40,497 bases of DNA from Thermoplasmata archaeon. GTDB taxonomy: Archaea > Thermoplasmatota > Thermoplasmata > Thermoplasmatales > Thermoplasmataceae. The stretch is taken from NCBI GenBank assembly GCA_021797555.1, contig JAJZZM010000007.1, positions 1 to 40,497 on the forward strand, read 5' to 3'. Each line of letters opens with the position of its first letter. Position 1 is the first letter of the stretch. Position numbers and translations under genes: made by a program. The notes under the pieces are model-generated. The model worked only from the letters and a program-made list of their open reading frames with translations, searched no databases and was not told the origin of the DNA. This document shows positions 588-10,686 of the stretch, piece by piece.

Positions 588-605
588 TGTATGTATATTA
601 ATATT

Positions 606-1616
606 ATGAAAGCAATGGTTCTTGATAAAACTGATAAGGTAGAAAATAACCCATTGAAGTATAGAGATGTTAGTATTAAGGATCCGAAGGGCTATGAGGT
701 TCTTCTAGACATAATATCGTGTGGTGTATGCCATTCTAATTTACACATGATTGAGGGTGATTGGGTTGAATATGGATTGCCAGGCAAGTCACCACTAATA
801 CCTGGACATGAAATAATAGGGAAAGTATCAAAGCTTGGAGACCTTGTTGATAATTTAAAAATTGGTGATGTAGTAGGCATACAGCCTTTATACCAGGCAT
901 GCGGGAAATGTGAATACTGCATAACCGGCAGGGAACATTTATGCCCCTATGGCAAATGGGCCGGTGAAACCGTTGATGGTGGATATGCAGAGAATATAAT
1001 AGCTGATTCAAGATATGTAAATAAGGTCCCTGACAATATAGATTATGTTAAAAACTCACCATTATTCTGCCCGGGGATAACAGCATACTGTGCTGTAAAT
1101 AAAGCAGAATTGTCTCCAGATAAAACCGTATATATTGTAGGTATAGGTGGTGTAGGCCATGTTGCAATACAGATTGCAAAATTATACGGGGCTAAGGTAG
1201 TTGCTGTATCAACATCAAAGAACCATGAAGAATTAGCATATGAAATGGGAGCAGATGATGTAATACTTGTAAATAGGGATTATTCTAATATAGATAAATA
1301 CAAAAAAACTGCAGATTCATTGATTTTATTTGCACCTTATGAGGCACCGATAATGAATTCAATAAATTTTGTAAAGGATGGGGGCATACTTGTTCAGGGA
1401 GTTCGTGGCAAATTAAATTATGACTTCACAACCGAAATAAAATTAAAGGGTACAAAAATAGGTGGCAGATCTGATATGGACAACGTTTTAAGGCTGGCAT
1501 CACAGGGAAAGATAAAAATAGAATCTAAGGAATATAAACTTGAGGATGCCAATATTGCATTGCAGGATCTAAAGCATGGTAATATAAACGGAAGGGCTGT
1601 ATTAAAAATCAGATAG
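606..1616 (+). CDS. Zinc-dependent medium-chain alcohol dehydrogenase
   Basis: The 336-residue protein is a cytoplasmic NAD(P)-dependent MDR dehydrogenase of the propanol-preferring AdhP type, interconverting alcohols and aldehydes. Catalytic zinc ligands are Cys42 (CGVCHSN), His68 (GHE) and Cys155 (LFCPG). The structural zinc lobe has Cys99, 102, 105 and 113 (CGKCEYC..C). The Rossmann motif GIGGVGH lies near residues 179-185. Length is normal for the family (about 340). An in-frame ATG at 591 would add five residues, but the TATA box centred at 582 fits a leaderless start at 606. The gene stands alone between decayed mobile-element fragments and the collapsed sugar-transport duplication. The physiological substrate cannot be told from sequence. 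Confidence 0.9.
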   Translation: MKAMVLDKTDKVENNPLKYRDVSIKDPKGYEVLLDIISCGVCHSNLHMIEGDWVEYGLPGKSPLIPGHEIIGKVSKLGDLVDNLKIGDVVGIQPLYQACGKCEYCITGREHLCPYGKWAGETVDGGYAENIIADSRYVNKVPDNIDYVKNSPLFCPGITAYCAVNKAELSPDKTVYIVGIGGVGHVAIQIAKLYGAKVVAVSTSKNHEELAYEMGADDVILVNRDYSNIDKYKKTADSLILFAPYEAPIMNSINFVKDGGILVQGVRGKLNYDFTTEIKLKGTKIGGRSDMDNVLRLASQGKIKIESKEYKLEDANIALQDLKHGNINGRAVLKIR

Positions 1617-1767: not shown

Positions 1768-1832
1768 TTTTAATATATGCCTTAGAAAAATATTGAGAAA
1801 GTATAGCAGTTATAATGTTATATTAACAATAA
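1768..1832 (+). pseudogene. Internal fragment of a second anmK-like gene
   Basis: Positions 1780-1807 match 4530-4557, inside the intact anmK-like gene, at 27 of 28 bases (mismatch at 1801). Weaker similarity extends over roughly 1768-1832. The fragment has the same orientation as the intact gene and lies just before a permease remnant, which is the gene order expected of a collapsed tandem copy of the kinase-transporter block. Confidence 0.6.
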
Positions 1833-1848
1833 TACTCCAATAAGCATT

Positions 1849-1912
1849 ATAAAATACCGAAAATAAGCGTTGGTATTAAAAATAAAAAAATTGTAAATTT
1901 ATTTTTATTCAT
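1849..1912 (-). pseudogene. 5' remnant of a duplicated ABC sugar permease (glcT-like)
   Basis: This stretch is identical to 7757-7820, the first 21 codons of the intact permease gene. It begins with the same ATG overlapping the stop of the upstream binding-protein gene, and then ends abruptly at 1849. Only the N-terminal signal-anchor part remains. It shows that the binding-protein gene at 1909-3558 once headed its own transporter operon. Confidence 0.85.
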
Positions 1913-2109
1913 CTTTTATCACTCATAATAAGCGAGCCCAGAACAAATGCTATAAATGGTGCTATTACATAGTATATAGACGATGAGTAGTTTGATGAAG
2001 TATTGGTATGTACTGCATTGTCTGCTGTAACTGTTGTGGATGTACTGCTATTTACCCATGGAGGTAGATACCCTCCAAATGGATGTGATAATGTTCCCAT
2101 AAAGCCAAA
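1849..2109. repeat. Direct repeat, copy 1 (261 bp, identical to 7757-8017)
   Basis: By eye, every base of 1849-2109 matches 7757-8017 at an offset of 5908. The repeat covers the permease 5' remnant and the 3' end of the binding-protein gene. The first mismatches come at 2110 onward. Confidence 0.85.
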
Positions 2110-3558
2110 ACCCAGACCATTGGCTGCCAACCAATCAGATTTTTCACTGCTTATTACAGATGATAATTGATTATCAAAAGTGGTTATACCACTTGATGTT
2201 GGAGACCCCACAAGGCCAAGTAATCCACTTTCTAAAGATGTTGTAGGTCCTGCAAAAAGACCGCCGGCATCTAAATCTACTATCCAGTCAGATGGTATAC
2301 TTGCCTCTGCTTTTGCCTGCTGATAGCTTGCATACTGTGATGGCGTGTTATAATAATCAGTTGTTATATTGTTATAATAACTTGATGCTTTCCATTTTGT
2401 AAATATCATCTGTCCATTATATGATGCAAAGAATTTTGCAAATGTTAAACCCTGTGTAGCTGTTGGCCCTGAAGGCACTGCAATTGAATCACTTACTATC
2501 ATAAAATATTTGCTTGTTCCCGGGAAATCCATAGACATTAACCTTATATTGCCTGTATCTGGTTTTAATGTACCGTTATTCATGTATACATATGTTGAAT
2601 TAACAGGATATGTTGTTACGTTTAGATAATCATATGCATAATTTGTATACGAATTTACATCGACTTCAAATCCTACATCCTTGTCTAGAACTTTTGGTAT
2701 AGCCTCTGTCCATGTCATGCTTGTCTCTGCACTGTAACTTTCTTTCTGGAATTTAACAAACTGATCATTTGTCTCATTTATTATTTTAGATGCTGTCGAA
2801 TTTGATAGGTTCAATGTTCCGTACATAAATTTATCAAATAAAGTAGCATTTCCGCATATCGAATTGTCAAATCTTAAAAATAGGGATTCCCATAATTCCC
2901 CCTGATCGTATCCTCCATCATCACCTGGTATTATCCATGGAGTTACTCCTTTTGCTTCCAATGCGGCTGTATCACTTAAAAGTAATGTATAGTTTATCGG
3001 TGCCGGTAAACCATACTCTTTTAATGTCTGTGGATTAAAGTATAAAACACCTCCCTGATGCAAATCAACAGGTAATGAGAACATGGTTCCATTGAAGGTA
3101 CCTGCATATAAATCCTGAGGGAAAACCGTGGAAGTGGTTAGATTTATGGAACTTGCTACAGAGTTCATTTTTACAAATGCGCTTGAACCTCCTGGAGCCG
3201 TTTCAACATAACTTAATATCTGAGGGCCATAAAGTGATTGAAACATGTTAGGCGCCTTCCCCTCTTTCATCAATGTTAATATTGCACCTATTGCAGTTAC
3301 GCCTGCAGCCCCAGGTTTTATTGTTTGTTCTACCTTTATATTTGGATGTGATGCTTCAAATGACGATATCACGTGATCCAGTGCTACCTTTCCAGTAGAA
3401 GCCCACCAACTATAAAAGTATATAGTCTTCTTTGTAGGAGGATGTGTAAATTCATAAACACCAACTCCAATGCCCGCTATAACTATAATAACAACCACTA
3501 TGGCCATTACTTTTTTATAACCACCACTTTTGGTAGGTGGCGCATCAGGTTTTTCCAT
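1909..3558 (-). CDS. Orphan membrane-anchored sugar-binding protein (GlcS paralogue)
   Basis: This 549-residue extracytoplasmic binding protein has a short Lys-rich cytoplasmic head, a membrane segment at about residues 17-38, a large ligand-binding domain with many N-glycosylation sequons (e.g. NLT, NTS), and a second membrane segment just before the C-terminal SDKR. It is a close paralogue of the operon-borne protein at 7817-9463. The two are nearly identical at both ends and over the stretch around NVTTYPVNSTYVYMNNG, but differ in the regions likely to contact ligand. It has no permease or ATPase of its own; only a permease stub follows at 1912. It therefore probably feeds the single transporter encoded at 4939-7820. 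The start at 3558 (MEKPDAPP) is supported by a TATA box centred near 3584. Confidence 0.85.
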   Translation of the reverse strand: MEKPDAPPTKSGGYKKVMAIVVVIIVIAGIGVGVYEFTHPPTKKTIYFYSWWASTGKVALDHVISSFEASHPNIKVEQTIKPGAAGVTAIGAILTLMKEGKAPNMFQSLYGPQILSYVETAPGGSSAFVKMNSVASSINLTTSTVFPQDLYAGTFNGTMFSLPVDLHQGGVLYFNPQTLKEYGLPAPINYTLLLSDTAALEAKGVTPWIIPGDDGGYDQGELWESLFLRFDNSICGNATLFDKFMYGTLNLSNSTASKIINETNDQFVKFQKESYSAETSMTWTEAIPKVLDKDVGFEVDVNSYTNYAYDYLNVTTYPVNSTYVYMNNGTLKPDTGNIRLMSMDFPGTSKYFMIVSDSIAVPSGPTATQGLTFAKFFASYNGQMIFTKWKASSYYNNITTDYYNTPSQYASYQQAKAEASIPSDWIVDLDAGGLFAGPTTSLESGLLGLVGSPTSSGITTFDNQLSSVISSEKSDWLAANGLGFGFMGTLSHPFGGYLPPWVNSSTSTTVTADNAVHTNTSSNYSSSIYYVIAPFIAFVLGSLIMSDKR

Positions 3559-3578
3559 TATATTTTATTATATAATGA

Positions 3579-3594
3579 TATTTAAATATTTTGC
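3579..3594 (-). promoter_or_regulatory. Promoter of the orphan binding-protein gene
   Basis: Read on the minus strand this is GCAAAATATTTAAATA, beginning 36 nt upstream of the ATG at 3558. The operon copy has GCAAAAGATATAAATA at 37 nt from its MEK start codon. The GCAAAA element plus TATA is thus conserved between the paralogues. Confidence 0.55.
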
Positions 3595-3686
3595 AATGAT
3601 ATTTTAATAATCTTTCATATGTATAATACATATTTATATTATTATATAGAAATTGTGTTTATAAATATCCATAATAGGTCACAAAA

Positions 3687-3694
3687 ATTAAATA
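3687..3694 (+). promoter_or_regulatory. TATA box of the anmK-like gene
   Basis: ATTAAATA is centred about 25 nt before the ATG at 3715, consistent with leaderless transcription from that codon. Confidence 0.45.
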
Positions 3695-3714
3695 TTGTTA
3701 TTTATTTGCTGAAT

Positions 3715-4902
3715 ATGAGTATTGCAATAGGATTAAATAGTGGATCATCAGTGGATAGTGTGGATGTTGCTATAATAGAAACTGAAATATATAAAAAACT
3801 TATGAAGCCTATTAAAGTATTAAAACACTTTGAATTCCAGTGGCCTGATAACATTAAAAAATTAGTATTAAACGCAATAGAATTCAATATAAAAATACCT
3901 GAATTTTCGAGATTAAACACAATGGTTGGATCATTTTTTGGTGAAACTATAAATATGGCATTGAAAGAATCAGGTTTAAATAGTACCGATATAGATGTGA
4001 TAGGCTATGATGGTCAAACTATATACCAGGAACCACCGTTAATAGGAAAAACAGATAAAAATGGTTGTAAACTGCCTGTAACTTATAATGTTGTAAACAA
4101 AACATTAGGAACAACATTGCAGATAGGTGAAAGTGCAATGGTGGCGGCTATAACGGGAATAAAAACAGTAACAAAATTTAGACCGGCAGATATGGCAGTT
4201 GGAGGTACAGGTGCACCCATAGAGGAATTTCTTGATTATATTCAATATAAAAATATTGCACCAGTGCTGACCTTGAATATAGGGGGAATAGCAAATATAC
4301 ACGCTATTCATAAAGATATAAATAAGGTTATGGCATTTGATGTGGGGCCAGGAAATATTTTGATAGACAGACTCTCAAGAGATAAATTTGGAAAGGAGTA
4401 TGATAAAGATGGCAATATTGCATTATATGGAAAAATAAATAATAGGTTATTAGATGAATTAATGGCACACCCTTTTTTATCTATTAAACCACCTAAATGT
4501 GCATGGCGTGAAGATTTTAATGATGCATTCCTTAGAAAAATATTGAGAAAATATAGCCATGTAAATATCAATGATATAATGACAACAATAACAGAATTTA
4601 CAGTAAAAGCTATACTTGGGGGCCTTAAATGGGTACCGTACATGGATAATATAAACACAATAATAGGCAATGGTGGTGGTTTATTAAATAAATATATAGT
4701 AAATAGTTTAAGAAGCCAATTACCTGAACATATTAAACTTATAATGTCTGATTATTTTGGTATCCCGATAAAAGCAAATGAAGCTGCAAAATTTGGTGCA
4801 CTTGCACTTGCAACTATAAATAACATACCAGCAAATTTTCCTAATGCAAGCGGTGCAACAAAAATGTCAATACTTGGAAAAGTAAGTTACCCACCCTTAT
4901 AA
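3715..4902 (+). CDS. anmK: AnmK-like anhydro-sugar kinase (ASKHA fold)
   Basis: This 395-residue protein belongs to the anhydro-N-acetylmuramic acid kinase family, which phosphorylates 1,6-anhydro sugars with ring opening. Visible motifs are the N-terminal phosphate loop GLNSGSSVDSVD (residues 7-17), GYDGQT (97-102), RPADMAVGGTGAPI with the expected catalytic Asp159, NIGGIANI (188-195), and a later FDVGPGN. Length fits the family (about 370-400). Departures from bacterial AnmK are SGSSVDS for SGTSxDG and Asp99 where HGQT is usual. Archaea lack murein, so the substrate is probably another anhydro or ordinary sugar taken up by the neighbouring transporter. Upstream in-frame codons back to 3619 are rejected because the family motif starts right at 3715 and a TATA box fits there. 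It converges on the transporter ATPase gene. Confidence 0.8.
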   Translation: MSIAIGLNSGSSVDSVDVAIIETEIYKKLMKPIKVLKHFEFQWPDNIKKLVLNAIEFNIKIPEFSRLNTMVGSFFGETINMALKESGLNSTDIDVIGYDGQTIYQEPPLIGKTDKNGCKLPVTYNVVNKTLGTTLQIGESAMVAAITGIKTVTKFRPADMAVGGTGAPIEEFLDYIQYKNIAPVLTLNIGGIANIHAIHKDINKVMAFDVGPGNILIDRLSRDKFGKEYDKDGNIALYGKINNRLLDELMAHPFLSIKPPKCAWREDFNDAFLRKILRKYSHVNINDIMTTITEFTVKAILGGLKWVPYMDNINTIIGNGGGLLNKYIVNSLRSQLPEHIKLIMSDYFGIPIKANEAAKFGALALATINNIPANFPNASGATKMSILGKVSYPPL

Positions 4903-4938
4903 TTAAATTTTAAAAATTAAAATTTATTAAAAATATAT

Positions 4939-6090
4939 CTAATTTCTTTCTATTTCTTCATTTAATTTTATAGCGTCTTTTGATGCATATTCAAACAATT
5001 TAATTTTTGATTTATTTATATATACATTTACTTTATCACCATAGAATATGGGTTCCCTGCTTATGCCTTTTATTTTAGTTCCAGATATATTTAATACTAC
5101 AGAAAATGATCCCTGATTGTAGTTAACTGTATCCGCTTCAAATACACCAATTTTTTGAGTATTGCCCTCATATTTTGTTTCTATATTACTATCTATTTCT
5201 GTAGATTTTTCGATTATTAGATCTTCCGGCCTTATACCTAGAGTTATTTTAGAATCATTATAATCATTAAGTTTTATGCCCGTTATAATAAAGTTCTCAA
5301 AAATAAGGTCATAATAACCATTTTTTTCTTTTAGATCAAAGTCTACAATGTTAATATCGCCTAATGTACCTGCAACTCTTTCATTTGAAGGATAATCATA
5401 AAGGTCCTTTGGTGTCCCCAATTGTACAAGATTTCCTCTGGATATTACTGCTACTTTCTCTGCCAGTGCAAATATATCTGCAGGGTCATGCGAAACAATA
5501 ATTGTTGTGATACCAAGTTCATTTTTAACCTTTTTTACCAGTGCCCTTGCATCATCCCTGGCATTAGCATCAAGATTGCTGAATGGTTCATCCAGCAATA
5601 AAAATTTAGGATTCTTCGCTAGAGCCCTTGCAACGGCAACCCTCTGCTGCTGACCACCACTTATTTCCCCAGGTCTTTTTGCAAGGACTTCCCTTATGCC
5701 AAGTATATCTGCAAGTTCATAAACTCTTTTTGTTATCTCATTTTGATTCCATTTTTTAACCTTTAATGGAAATGCTATGTTCTCATAGTTATTCATATGC
5801 GGATATAATGCCCAGTTCTGAAATACCATGCCAATATCCCTTTCTTCAGGGTCTATTATTGTTCTATCATCCTTGGATACAACAGTTTTGTCAAAAAGTA
5901 CCTCACCCATCGTGGGTGCCTCAAGACCTGCAATTATTCTCATTGTTGTTGTTTTTCCTGCCCCGCTTGCCCCAAGTATACCAAAAAATGAATTATCTGG
6001 TATTTCAAGATTTATATTGCTCAAAGCTTTAAACTCTGTTTTCCCTTTTTTAAATATTTTAGATACATTGTTTAATTTTATATTAACCAT
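4939..6090 (-). CDS. glcV: Sugar ABC transporter ATPase (GlcV/MalK type)
   Basis: The 383-residue cytoplasmic ATPase powers CUT1-type sugar uptake. Walker A GASGAGKTT (40-48), Q-loop Gln91, signature SGGQQ (144-148), Walker B LLLDE (164-168) and H-loop His201 are all intact. A C-terminal OB/TOBE-type domain follows, with GIRPEDL. It closely resembles the Sulfolobus solfataricus glucose transporter ATPase GlcV, including ALYP after the Q-loop, VSHDPADIFA and the tail. It is the last gene of the binding protein-permease-permease-ATPase operon. I place the start at 6090 (MVNIKLNN) rather than 6117, because the usual ABC N-terminus begins there and a GGTGAT ribosome-binding site precedes it. That leaves 4 nt after the upstream stop. 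Confidence 0.93.
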   Translation of the reverse strand: MVNIKLNNVSKIFKKGKTEFKALSNINLEIPDNSFFGILGASGAGKTTTMRIIAGLEAPTMGEVLFDKTVVSKDDRTIIDPEERDIGMVFQNWALYPHMNNYENIAFPLKVKKWNQNEITKRVYELADILGIREVLAKRPGEISGGQQQRVAVARALAKNPKFLLLDEPFSNLDANARDDARALVKKVKNELGITTIIVSHDPADIFALAEKVAVISRGNLVQLGTPKDLYDYPSNERVAGTLGDINIVDFDLKEKNGYYDLIFENFIITGIKLNDYNDSKITLGIRPEDLIIEKSTEIDSNIETKYEGNTQKIGVFEADTVNYNQGSFSVVLNISGTKIKGISREPIFYGDKVNVYINKSKIKLFEYASKDAIKLNEEIERN

Positions 6091-6093
6091 TTT

Positions 6094-6100
6094 ATCACCC
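6094..6100 (-). promoter_or_regulatory. Ribosome-binding site of glcV
   Basis: GGGTGAT on the minus strand lies three bases before the ATG at 6090 and contains the stop codon of the upstream permease. It indicates translational coupling and decides the start. Confidence 0.6.
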
Positions 6101-6964
6101 TTTTCTTCCTGTTCCAAATGCCTGGAATCCTCTTATGAAATATCTGCCCAGGAATACAAATATCACCAATGGTATCAACGATGCTATAAATGCAGATGCA
6201 AAGCTTTCGTTATATAATGTTCCATACCCACCAGTATAACTCATAAGAGCCAGCGATGCCGAATTCATACCCGGTGTGGTTACAAGAACCAGTGGAACAA
6301 AGAAATTATTCCAGCTTTCTATCAATATAAATATAAATGTGGATATAAAGCCTGGCATTGCAAGTGGCAGTACTACTTTATTGAATATTGTCCAATCATT
6401 GGCCCCATCTATTCTGGCAGATTCAAGTGTTGTTTTTGGCAGTACAGCAAGGAATATTGACATTAGCAATGCCCCTGTAGGCAAATAAAATATAAGCATT
6501 GCTATAATTATGCCTGGATACGTATTTAAAAGCCCTATGCTGCTTATAAACTTTGTTAATGGCAATAATGTTATCTCATATGGAACAAATGTGGCTATAG
6601 CTATTATTGTAAATAATAATGTATTTATCATTCTTGCCTTCTTATAGAAATAGAATGCAGCCATTGCACCTATATATGTTGATATTATAGCTGTTGGCAC
6701 AGTATATATTATGCTATTAAGAATGGGCCTTTCCAGTGCCGTGGTAACTGTGATAAAAGGGCCTAAAGAGCTTTTTGCCGGAAATAATATTGGTGTTATA
6801 AGCACACCGGACGCAGATTTAAGGCCATCTATAACCATAACATATATAGGGAATAACCATAAAATTGAGAATATTACCAATATTATATTATGTATTATCC
6901 TCTTAACATTTTTAACGTTTTTTGCACCGTTTATATTACTATTTGTATTTTTATTTTTAATCAT
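6095..6964 (-). CDS. glcU: Sugar ABC transporter permease (GlcU/MalG type)
   Basis: A 289-residue integral membrane protein with six predicted helices. The EAA loop, which docks on the ATPase, is visible as ESARIDGAND..VLPLAMPG. The cytoplasmic N-terminus is Lys/Asn-rich. Its start codon overlaps the end of the preceding permease gene by 8 nt (6957-6964), and its stop lies 4 nt before glcV, so the four genes form one tightly coupled operon. Size, EAA motif and order match the second permease of CUT1 systems. The name follows the Sulfolobus glcSTUV order and is inferred from gene position. Confidence 0.88.
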   Translation of the reverse strand: MIKNKNTNSNINGAKNVKNVKRIIHNIILVIFSILWLFPIYVMVIDGLKSASGVLITPILFPAKSSLGPFITVTTALERPILNSIIYTVPTAIISTYIGAMAAFYFYKKARMINTLLFTIIAIATFVPYEITLLPLTKFISSIGLLNTYPGIIIAMLIFYLPTGALLMSIFLAVLPKTTLESARIDGANDWTIFNKVVLPLAMPGFISTFIFILIESWNNFFVPLVLVTTPGMNSASLALMSYTGGYGTLYNESFASAFIASLIPLVIFVFLGRYFIRGFQAFGTGRKG

Positions 6965-7820
6965 TTGCTAACCACCTTTTTATTCCGTATAATGCAAATG
7001 GTATAACCACAACCAGTGCTATAAGCATCACTATAACACTTTCGGCAGAAGATTCTGAAAAGGATAATGATGTATATAATACATATAAATTCTCAACTGA
7101 AGTTTCTGTATATGGATTTAATAGAGTTGCCACATATGGTAAACTAAAGAATCTTAATGCAAATATAAAGATTATTGCTGTTGATACTATAAAGGCATTT
7201 TTAGCTTCAGGTAGCAATATTTTCCTTAATATCCTAAAGGAAGAAGCCGAATCAATTTTTGCAGATTCAACTATATCTTTACTTACATTCTGGAATGATG
7301 CAAGATAAAATAATGATGCAAGTCCCGAAAATACCCATATAGAAACCAGTATTAAACTTGGAAATGCCGTTGCCGGTGAATCAAGCCATGGGAATCTTGG
7401 CAGACCTATCCTCACAAATAGGTAATCTACACCATCATTTATGTTAAAAAGCCAGGTCCATATTACACCGGAGGCAGCCATTGATACTGCTAATGGATAA
7501 ACAAATATGGATGTGTATACAGCACGGGTTTTTTGATTTCTAAGGAAATAAATAAGGCTTGCAAAGAATATACCCATCACATTTCCTCCGGCTATTAAAA
7601 CAAATGCCCATATTATTGACCTTTTTAATGATGAAACAACAAGTGCATTTGAAAATAATTCCTTATATGTTGCAAACCCTACAAACTTTGCTACCAGTAC
7701 TGTTGCAGATGAATCGAGAAAAGAATAATAAACGTTATAAAATACGAAATATAACAATAAAATACCGAAAATAAGCGTTGGTATTAAAAATAAAAAAATT
7801 GTAAATTTATTTTTATTCAT
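6957..7820 (-). CDS. glcT: Sugar ABC transporter permease (GlcT/MalF type)
   Basis: A 287-residue membrane protein with about six helices and an EAA loop (ESAKIDSASSF..ILLPEAK, near residues 186-208). It partners the next permease to form the transmembrane channel. Its ATG overlaps the stop of the binding-protein gene in an ATGA arrangement (7817-7820), and its end overlaps the next gene by 8 nt. The first 64 bases are duplicated at 1849-1912 as a dead stub. The protein itself looks complete. Confidence 0.88.
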   Translation of the reverse strand: MNKNKFTIFLFLIPTLIFGILLLYFVFYNVYYSFLDSSATVLVAKFVGFATYKELFSNALVVSSLKRSIIWAFVLIAGGNVMGIFFASLIYFLRNQKTRAVYTSIFVYPLAVSMAASGVIWTWLFNINDGVDYLFVRIGLPRFPWLDSPATAFPSLILVSIWVFSGLASLFYLASFQNVSKDIVESAKIDSASSFRILRKILLPEAKNAFIVSTAIIFIFALRFFSLPYVATLLNPYTETSVENLYVLYTSLSFSESSAESVIVMLIALVVVIPFALYGIKRWLAND

Positions 7821-8017
7821 CTTTTATCACTCATAATAAGCGAGCCCAGAACAAATGCTATAAATGGTGCTATTACATAGTATATAGACGATGAGTAGTT
7901 TGATGAAGTATTGGTATGTACTGCATTGTCTGCTGTAACTGTTGTGGATGTACTGCTATTTACCCATGGAGGTAGATACCCTCCAAATGGATGTGATAAT
8001 GTTCCCATAAAGCCAAA
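7757..8017. repeat. Direct repeat, copy 2 (261 bp, identical to 1849-2109)
   Basis: This copy spans the 5' end of the intact permease gene and the 3' end of its binding-protein gene. Perfect identity, including third codon positions, contrasts with strong divergence of the two binding-protein genes further inside. Confidence 0.85.
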
Positions 8018-9463
8018 GCCAAGTGAGTTTGCAACCTTCCACTCACTTTGTTCCGTTGAAAGAACACTTGAAAGAGAGCTGTCAAATGTATGTATACCTG
8101 CTCCATCTCTTGTAGATGCCAGCGATAGCAATGAACTTATTATTGTTAAGTACGGACCATCAAATAATCCACCATCTGATAGCTGATATAGCCAGTCTGT
8201 TGGTTTGTTGGCAACTGTTTTTGCATCCAAATAGCTTGCATACTGTGATGGCGTATTATAATAATCTGTTGTTATATTGTTATAAAAGCTTGATGCTTTC
8301 CATTTTGTAAATACCATCTGTCCATTATATGATGCAAAGAATTTTGCAAATGTTAAACCCTGTGTTGCTGTTGATCCTGATGGCACTGCAATTGAATCAG
8401 AAACAAGGACGAAATATTTCCCAGTTCCCGGGAAATCCATAGACATTAACTTTATATTGCCTGCATCAGGTTTTAATGTACCGTTATTCATGTATACATA
8501 TGTTGAATTAACAGGATATGTTGTTACATTTAGATAATCATATGCATAATCTACATACCAGTTTCCATTTGCTTCAAATCCTACATCCTTATCTACAACT
8601 TTTGGTAGAGCCTGTGTCCATGTCATGCTTGTCTCTCCACTGTAACTATTATTTTCCATGGTAAGGAAATCACTGTTTGTTTCACCTACTATTTTAGCAA
8701 CCGTTGGATTGGATAAATTCAATGTACCATACATAAATTCATCATATAACGTGCCGTTTCCGCATGTTTTATTATCCAAAGCAAGGAATGTATCTTCCCA
8801 ATTTTGCATCTGGTCCCAGCCACCATCATCACCAGGTATTATCCATGGAGTTACTCCCTTTGCCTTCAATGCAGCTGTATCACTCATTAATGTGGTAAAG
8901 TTTAATGGTATTGGTAAATGGTTTTCTGCTAATGTCTGCGGGTTGAAATATAGCTGTGCTCCCTGATGCATATCAACAGGCAATGAATACATAGAACCGT
9001 TGTATGTACCTGCCATCAAAACCTGACAAAATGCAGTTGATGTTGTTAAACCGATGCTTGATGCTACAGAATTCATTTTTACAAATGATGCTGCCTTGCT
9101 AGGTGCTGCATCTATATAGCTTAATATTTCTGGTCCAAGATGTGTCTGGAATGTGTCAGGTGGCTTTCCCTCTTTTATCAATGCTAATATTGCACCTTTA
9201 GCTGCCGTTCCGCCAGCTCCTGGTTTTATTGTAGGTTTAACCAAATAGCCTGGATGAGATGCTTCGAAAGCTGATGCTTCCTTATCAAAGGCAATTTTAC
9301 CTTCGGTTGCCCACCATGTATAAAAGTAAACTGTTTTCTTTGCAGGATGTGTGAACTCATAAACCCCAACTCCAATGCCCGCTATAACTATAATAACAAC
9401 CACTATGGCTATTACTTTTTTATAACCACCACTTTTGGTAGGTGGTGCTTCAGGTTTCTCCAT
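7817..9463 (-). CDS. glcS: Membrane-anchored sugar-binding protein of the ABC operon (GlcS-like)
   Basis: The 548-residue protein captures sugar outside the cell and delivers it to the two permeases encoded just downstream. It has a Lys-containing head, a membrane anchor at about residues 17-38, a family 1-type binding domain rich in N-glycosylation sequons, and a C-terminal hydrophobic segment. An upstream in-frame ATG at 9478 would add five residues (MDTIT). I prefer 9463 (MEKPEAPP): the paralogue begins there, and in both genes the GCAAAA-TATA promoter lies 36-37 nt before this codon. Promoter-proximal IS DNA begins at 9618. The glucose specificity is inferred from the Sulfolobus-like ATPase and the nearby glucose dehydrogenase. 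Confidence 0.88.
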   Translation of the reverse strand: MEKPEAPPTKSGGYKKVIAIVVVIIVIAGIGVGVYEFTHPAKKTVYFYTWWATEGKIAFDKEASAFEASHPGYLVKPTIKPGAGGTAAKGAILALIKEGKPPDTFQTHLGPEILSYIDAAPSKAASFVKMNSVASSIGLTTSTAFCQVLMAGTYNGSMYSLPVDMHQGAQLYFNPQTLAENHLPIPLNFTTLMSDTAALKAKGVTPWIIPGDDGGWDQMQNWEDTFLALDNKTCGNGTLYDEFMYGTLNLSNPTVAKIVGETNSDFLTMENNSYSGETSMTWTQALPKVVDKDVGFEANGNWYVDYAYDYLNVTTYPVNSTYVYMNNGTLKPDAGNIKLMSMDFPGTGKYFVLVSDSIAVPSGSTATQGLTFAKFFASYNGQMVFTKWKASSFYNNITTDYYNTPSQYASYLDAKTVANKPTDWLYQLSDGGLFDGPYLTIISSLLSLASTRDGAGIHTFDSSLSSVLSTEQSEWKVANSLGFGFMGTLSHPFGGYLPPWVNSSTSTTVTADNAVHTNTSSNYSSSIYYVIAPFIAFVLGSLIMSDKR

Positions 9464-9483
9464 GGTGATAGTATCCATTAATA

Positions 9484-9617: not shown

Positions 9618-9632
9618 TACCAGTTTCCAATA
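9618..9632 (+). repeat. Left terminal inverted repeat of the IS element
   Basis: TACCAGTTTCCAATA is exactly complementary to 10903-10917. Confidence 0.85.
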
Positions 9633-9687
9633 CTTAACCTTTGTCCTACCATGTCATATTTATAGAATGATTTAATTTTCAATTATT

Positions 9688-10686
9688 ATGAAAACAGTGA
9701 AGCAGATACTGAAAAAACCAGCTAATGAAATATCAGAATCAATGAATATTGATATAAACTCGAAGAGGATTAAATTCATTGACAATTTATATGCTATAAT
9801 CTACAGTGCACTGCATAGATATGATCTAACCGATACATCCATTGACAATGGAATAAGCAAATCATGGCTTTCAAAGCTTAATAACAGTAAATCATACATT
9901 CCATTCATTGAACTATTCTATAAATTATTAAAACTATACATTAAAGCACATGATTATAAAGTATACAGCAGGTACATGCGTGTACTGGCAATTGATTCCA
10001 CATTCATTAAAACATTTATAAATGGTTCAGGCAGTTACAAGGGAGAATCTAATGGAATTAAAATACATGTTCCTGCAATTGTATTTCCATTCACTGTTCC
10101 ACTGAATGCATACATATCATCTGCAAATGCAAATGATTCATCACGGTTTGATAATATAATTAATAATATTGATAATAAAATATTATACTCATCTATACTT
10201 GTATTTGATTTAGGGTACTATAATTTGGATAGGTTTAAATTACTTGCTGATAAAAATATATTATTTGTATCAAGAATAAAAAAGAATGCTGTTTACTCTG
10301 GATCCGGAACAGTCAATGGCCATGAAATGGTAAGAATGAATAATGGATTGAATTTAAGGATTGTAAGGGTGAATGTTGGAGGGATTGAATATAAGTATAT
10401 AACAAATATAATGAATTTACCTGATAGGTATATTTACTATGCATATAATTTGAGATGGAGCATAGAGGAATTATTTAAAAGAATGAAATCACAGTTAAAG
10501 ATAGATCATTTATTATCAAAATCATTAAATGGAATGATAATACAGGTATTCTCGTATATTATTGTGAACATGATAATGGAATCCATTGGTATTTTATTAT
10601 CATTCCCTGAAATCATAAGAGGTATAAGGCATGGAAATATAAGATATTTCAATAATATTTACAGTATTGATTTATCTAAAATATAG
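9688..10686 (+). CDS. IS4-family DDE transposase
   Basis: The 332-residue transposase mediates cut-and-paste movement of the surrounding element. The DDE triad is readable: first Asp in AIDSTFI, second Asp in VFDLGYYNLD, and Glu in RWSIEELFKRMK, the last matching the IS4 YREK-type signature region (Tnp_1 domain). A basic N-terminal segment probably binds the terminal repeats. There is no frameshift or stop. The length is slightly short for IS4 but within range, so the enzyme may be functional. The ATG at 9688 lies 55 nt inside the left repeat. Confidence 0.88.
   Translation: MKTVKQILKKPANEISESMNIDINSKRIKFIDNLYAIIYSALHRYDLTDTSIDNGISKSWLSKLNNSKSYIPFIELFYKLLKLYIKAHDYKVYSRYMRVLAIDSTFIKTFINGSGSYKGESNGIKIHVPAIVFPFTVPLNAYISSANANDSSRFDNIINNIDNKILYSSILVFDLGYYNLDRFKLLADKNILFVSRIKKNAVYSGSGTVNGHEMVRMNNGLNLRIVRVNVGGIEYKYITNIMNLPDRYIYYAYNLRWSIEELFKRMKSQLKIDHLLSKSLNGMIIQVFSYIIVNMIMESIGILLSFPEIIRGIRHGNIRYFNNIYSIDLSKI

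Follow-up and report, generated by a model that had tools for sequence, protein, structure and literature searches.

The mtrA-1 and mtrA-2 genes of methanogens are old paralogs that undergo recurrent conversion within species while another part of them stays distinct (PMC4632066), and for RF1 and RF2 of bacteria conversion is described within the domain whose function the two share (PMC4530459). From a different direction, ABC importers served by several binding proteins are the subject of Thomas 2010, ‘Homes for the orphans’, which appears as reference 32 in PMC7170509. The two binding-protein genes considered here lie in a 40,497-nucleotide stretch of DNA from a Thermoplasmata archaeon, referred to below as the window, and bear comparison with all three; one of them, SBP-A, is linked to a transporter and the other, SBP-B, is an orphan.

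As with mtrA-1 and mtrA-2, archaeal paralogs from an old duplication have been kept alike species by species with one part spared. There, however, it is the catalytic domain that is homogenised and the membrane domain that differs, whereas in SBP-A and SBP-B homogenisation affects anchors and scaffold and it is the putative pocket that differs. The latest SBP-A/SBP-B tract in addition runs on into a neighbouring gene. RF1 and RF2 are likewise two paralogs of different specificity with conversion in a functionally shared domain, but there two cases concern essentially one domain, and in SBP-A and SBP-B there are a number of patches that enclose islands of divergence. Those orphans resemble SBP-B in having no permeases of their own and in their presumed use of the membrane part of another system; SBP-B would share its importer in the same manner, and relative to that account continual conversion is its extra feature. 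Paralog conversion with a spared part and importer-sharing orphans are each known. A word search of the literature, in itself weak evidence, found no conversion between binding-protein genes of ABC importers, nor any description of both phenomena together with islands of specificity residues in three lineages.

The importer cluster and the remnants beside the orphan gene

The kinase-transporter block comprises, from left to right, an AnmK/levoglucosan-kinase-like sugar kinase (3715–4902, plus strand; Pfam PF03702) and, all on the minus strand, an ABC ATPase (4939–6090; PF00005), permease 2 (6095–6964) and permease 1 (6957–7820), both BPD_transp_1 (PF00528), and SBP-A (7817–9463, with an alternative upstream ATG possible at 9478). 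Such a cluster, in which an ATPase is joined by two BPD_transp_1 permeases and a binding protein of the sugar type, has the make-up of a binding-protein-dependent ABC sugar importer. The Pfam search returned no family for SBP-A or SBP-B, and the best solved sequence match of both is a glucose-binding protein of Thermus thermophilus, 2b3b. For the kinase the best solved match is the yeast-type levoglucosan kinase 4zxz (E 1.4e-51), which outscores the AnmK structures (3cqy, 2.3e-43); because archaea are not known to contain murein, levoglucosan or another 1,6-anhydrosugar may plausibly be its substrate. A DDE transposase gene (9688–10686), missing at the corresponding site in the closest relative, adjoins SBP-A, and its left end region (about 9618–9700) recurs at many sites in the genome.

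SBP-B (1909–3558, minus strand) lies to the left of this block and is intact, with 549 aa. It has no permeases of its own, its neighbours being an alcohol dehydrogenase (ADH) gene (591–1616, plus strand), two gene remnants and anmK, and in the closest relative there are none beside it either. The gene is under purifying selection, with a dN/dS of 0.13 between the window's SBP-B and that of the relative.

Both remnants sit between SBP-B and the ADH gene. One is a stub, the first 64 bp of permease 1 (1849–1912, minus strand; 64/64 identical to 7757–7820), which continues unbroken into the 3′ end of SBP-A, such that the two binding-protein genes with their flanks share a tract identical at 261/261 bp (1849–2109, minus strand, equal to 7757–8017); beyond it SBP-A/SBP-B identity drops to 52–62% over 2149–2311. 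The other is a shard of anmK (1780–1807, plus strand) that is 27/28 identical to 4530–4557, and nowhere else in the genome is there a better match to the shard. Outside the collinear SBP-A/SBP-B match this is the sole 28-mer pair with at most one mismatch on either strand of the window, and its uniqueness there rules out a chance match. With blastn, 1768–1834 against 4515–4590 gave 78%, 51.8 bits and E=1.5e-7 (whole genome). An extension of the shard over 1768–1834 is possible, and weak: past the 28-bp core, comparable extensions were obtained with 9/150 and 5/150 intergenic pieces taken at random. Across 1808–1848 no extension of the stub was found, and that of anmK was weak.

Shard, stub and tail are collinear with anmK, permease 1 and SBP-A, with the same order and direction. 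On what lies here the original prediction was right: an anmK-like piece that the window-wide 28-mer comparison sets apart from noise, a permease 5′ stub identical to the start of permease 1, and a binding-protein gene, in the order and orientation of the intact block. The most recent transfer, that of 1849–2109, would have come from the SBP-A side, because the intact permease lies there. The shard is too short for exact dating, with 1/28 differences against 0/261 in the tract, and so might stem from a separate event.

Age and mosaic structure of the orphan gene

Did the orphan gene arise together with the remnants beside it? The original prediction held that it did, with one tandem duplication of anmK-ATPase-permease-permease-binding protein followed by a single deletion that began in anmK and reached into permease 1, leaving SBP-B, stub and shard. 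This history agrees with the collinearity of shard, stub and gene with the block, and it accounts for the orphan in a single step. Informative relatives are few, one close and one from another genus. The closest with the locus is of the same genus (G002, Thermoplasmata archaeon TL2-1.bin13), the locus being on contig JAJZZE010000011.1, the same contig as L029. Its order is SBP-A, permease 1, permease 2, ATPase, a 126-bp dead anmK remnant, a further gene and SBP-B, the last on the same side of the transporter and in the same relative orientation as in the window. Amino-acid identity is 82% between the SBP-B orthologs and 81% between the SBP-A orthologs, against about 66% between SBP-A and SBP-B inside the relative. 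In L029 neither permease stub nor anmK shard was found 3′ of SBP-B, and the tail of the gene differs from that of SBP-B in the window.

Because an SBP-B ortholog adjoins the same transporter in the relative, the comparison indicates that the SBP-A/SBP-B duplication is older than the split of the window species and its nearest sequenced relative, and that the identical tail, the stub and the shard are all younger than the orphan gene. Synonymous divergence between window and relative is heavy (dS about 0.8–1.1), so dead DNA of the original duplication should not retain matches of 27/28 and 64/64. SBP-B and its stub are not of one age, the relative being without the stub and core and tail of the gene being of very different ages. 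With an orphan older than the scar beside it, and with a further orphan of the same type that is unlinked and stub-free in another genus, a case that the prediction itself had named as refuting it, a single duplication and deletion as the source of SBP-B is highly improbable. Part of the proposal survives: a second, largely deleted partial copy of the block, or some equivalent copying, is likely given the collinear remnants, but it does not supply the origin of SBP-B.

The left flank is a breakpoint. The relative's ortholog of the window ADH gene (91%) is about 54 kb from its SBP-B, and the rearrangement breakpoint is located between 1617 and about 1780; the relative's gene beyond SBP-B was sought across this genome as the native flank of SBP-B, with no match. 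In the relative, anmK at the equivalent position is dead, with five in-frame stops (L029 6620–6840; G002 C43:24552–24737), and within the genus anmK matches occur only in that remnant and in the present genome.

The near-identity of SBP-A and SBP-B is itself patchy, a feature overlooked earlier: high identity at the two ends and in portions of the middle alternates with stretches of strong divergence. In a codon alignment of four genes (SBP-A and SBP-B from window and relative) the informative sites, 79 of within-species and 159 of ortholog type, are blocky, with 40 switches, where 20,000 shuffles averaged 105 and never gave fewer than 76. Codons 51–275 and 426–478 group by ortholog, the within-species tree being rejected (AU p<1e-4), and codons 276–425 and 484–549 group by species, the ortholog tree being rejected (AU 0.009 and 0.003, with four taxa); codons 1–50 lean marginally toward species grouping (AU 0.05–0.09). 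The zones of these tree tests were picked post hoc from the site pattern, whereas the permutation test on switches is independent of zones. Synonymous distances fall into the same blocks as the trees in both species. Over codons 276–425 the dS between SBP-A and SBP-B is 0.25 in the window and 0.45 in the relative, as against 0.84 and 0.64 for orthologs, and over codons 484–551 it is 0 for the window pair and 0.96 for the SBP-A orthologs. The homogenised middle zone of SBP-B (codons 276–425, approximately 2284–2733, minus strand) contains differing islands near codons 299–306 and 352–356. The mosaic has the pattern expected of gene conversion between the paralogs, in the lineages of both window and relative.

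In another genus, G027 has its transporter-linked copy on one contig and an orphan on a different one. The unlinked orphan (L091 7743–9380; G027 C3) is B-type, and its 3′ half is nearly identical to the transporter-linked copy of the same genome; the similarity between the two ends at the gene boundary, with no permease stub. Over codons 326–525 the DNA of the pair is nearly identical except for an island at 353–366 and codon 377, and over codons 226–300 the two are far apart, with third-position identity of 0.32–0.48. Concerted evolution, with paralogs that in tracts are more alike within a species than orthologs are between species and with a duplication that predates the species split, is seen in the window and L029, and the G027 pair adds a third lineage.

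Two other histories have to be set against this evidence. The assembly has 24 contigs, of which the window is one in its entirety, and an exact repeat of 261 bp is a usual trouble spot, such that SBP-B might have been joined to the tail of SBP-A in a short-read assembly. However, the tract runs into unique sequence, the shard and then the ADH gene, that is not adjacent to SBP-A, and independent signs of the same process come from the middle and 5′ patches, in L029 and G027 also; we regard an artefact as very unlikely. Alternatively, the whole block might have been duplicated in tandem before the species split, its left copy then decaying while later conversion refreshed only stub and tail. Conversion between SBP-A and SBP-B is well supported, and a decayed stub in the relative could be beyond recognition, but a 28-bp shard at 27/28 is too intact for dead DNA that old (orthologous dS 0.8–1.1), L029 has no trace of a stub, and the G027 orphan is unlinked, all of which leave so old a block duplication unlikely.

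Islands of difference and the putative sugar pocket

Over codons 296–425 the paralogs differ at 21, 20 and 10 amino acids in the three pairs, and positions 300, 301, 303, 353 and 354, within largely homogenised sequence, differ in all three. Pairwise overlaps of the differing positions have P=1e-4, 0.01 and 7e-5, that between window and relative being partly a matter of common descent. The structure prediction for SBP-B, from nine sequences, was unusable (pLDDT 36), and the pocket positions therefore rest on sequence alignment to 2b3b. In that alignment 109 corresponds to H66 and 303 to W244, and 353–355 immediately precede the Asp of the LSDS motif. We take W8, W9, Q64, H66 and W244 of 2b3b to be glucose contacts, and positions 109, 303 and 353–355 presumably line the glucose pocket. 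SBP-A retains the residues aligned with all five, whereas SBP-B has Leu at the position of H66 and Ser at that of W244. His at 109 and Trp at 303 are present in all five comparison genomes.

The G027 orphan has the B-type residues of SBP-B: G85A, H109L, W217Y, W303S and L354I, plus two milder changes. Sites shared by type between it and SBP-B number 7, against 0 in the cross-pattern control. Are these residues common inheritance? A B clade that includes the G027 orphan is unsupported or undecided by trees in every zone, with outright rejection in several; the B-type residues arose twice, or else the clade existed and conversion has wiped it out. Convergence after a separate duplication in the genus of G027 would fit the clustering of the two G027 genes with each other in most zones as well as the missing clade, and we put its chances only slightly below even. 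It would have to produce identical replacements at otherwise invariant sites (G85A, H109L, W303S) together with W217Y, and the 7 to 0 count of type-shared sites, and heavy conversion would in any event wipe a shared B clade from the trees.

Two further binding-protein genes may be mentioned. That at L093 8515–10005 (G031) has intermediate signature residues (FQTH but GGFDQ) and is on a 12.8-kb contig without matching permease or ATPase, in a genome only 63% complete. The transporter-linked gene at L094 6513–8144 (G016) is in three frames, through apparent frameshifts or assembly errors, and the ATPase and permease matches there are likewise split.

History of the locus and role of the orphan

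The relative ages, the mosaic, the identical tract and the absence of the stub from the relatives can be read from the sequences themselves, and the history that we consider probable is that SBP-B is an old paralog subject to recurrent ectopic conversion with SBP-A, that stub and shard are a recombination scar, and that the two proteins share an importer for different ligands. On this reading SBP-B is a paralog of the importer's own binding protein that predates the species split, and ectopic conversion between the two genes would have taken place in at least three lineages, making them alike in the anchor at the N terminus, in the middle and in the C-terminal tail while the pocket regions remained different. 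In the latest event of the window lineage the 3′ end of SBP-A would have been copied into SBP-B, overrunning by 64 bp into permease 1, with the 28-bp anmK shard just past the overrun in collinear order.

Recombination may have taken either of two routes. By the first, SBP-A and SBP-B would have crossed over unequally at about 2109/8017, giving one more copy of the block with a hybrid gene at its end; from the anmK and permease 1 of this copy, later deletions would have spared 28 and 64 bases, respectively. By the second, break-induced repair would have copied from SBP-A into permease 1 and then skipped forward on the template. Both would fit the sequence and we make no choice between them. The original downstream flank of SBP-B would have been lost or rearranged during the latest event or afterwards. 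For the remnants themselves the outcome is the more ordinary one: what had been taken for the origin of the orphan appears to be a real recombination scar, misread.

As to function, SBP-B is most likely an alternative binding protein that serves the importer of SBP-A with a different ligand. What might conversion contribute to such an arrangement? A tentative answer, to which we give somewhat less than an even chance, is that conversion keeps the scaffold and anchors of the orphan compatible with the importer, that selection purges conversions of the pocket, and that a B-type pocket has persisted across genera within a gene whose remaining sequence appears species-specific. If so, gene conversion would let alternative binding proteins diverge in specificity and still fit a single importer. 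Trees built on entire genes of this kind would then give wrong dates for duplications, just as the apparent stub was misleading here, and the positions that have resisted conversion in three lineages would constitute a short, testable list of specificity residues.
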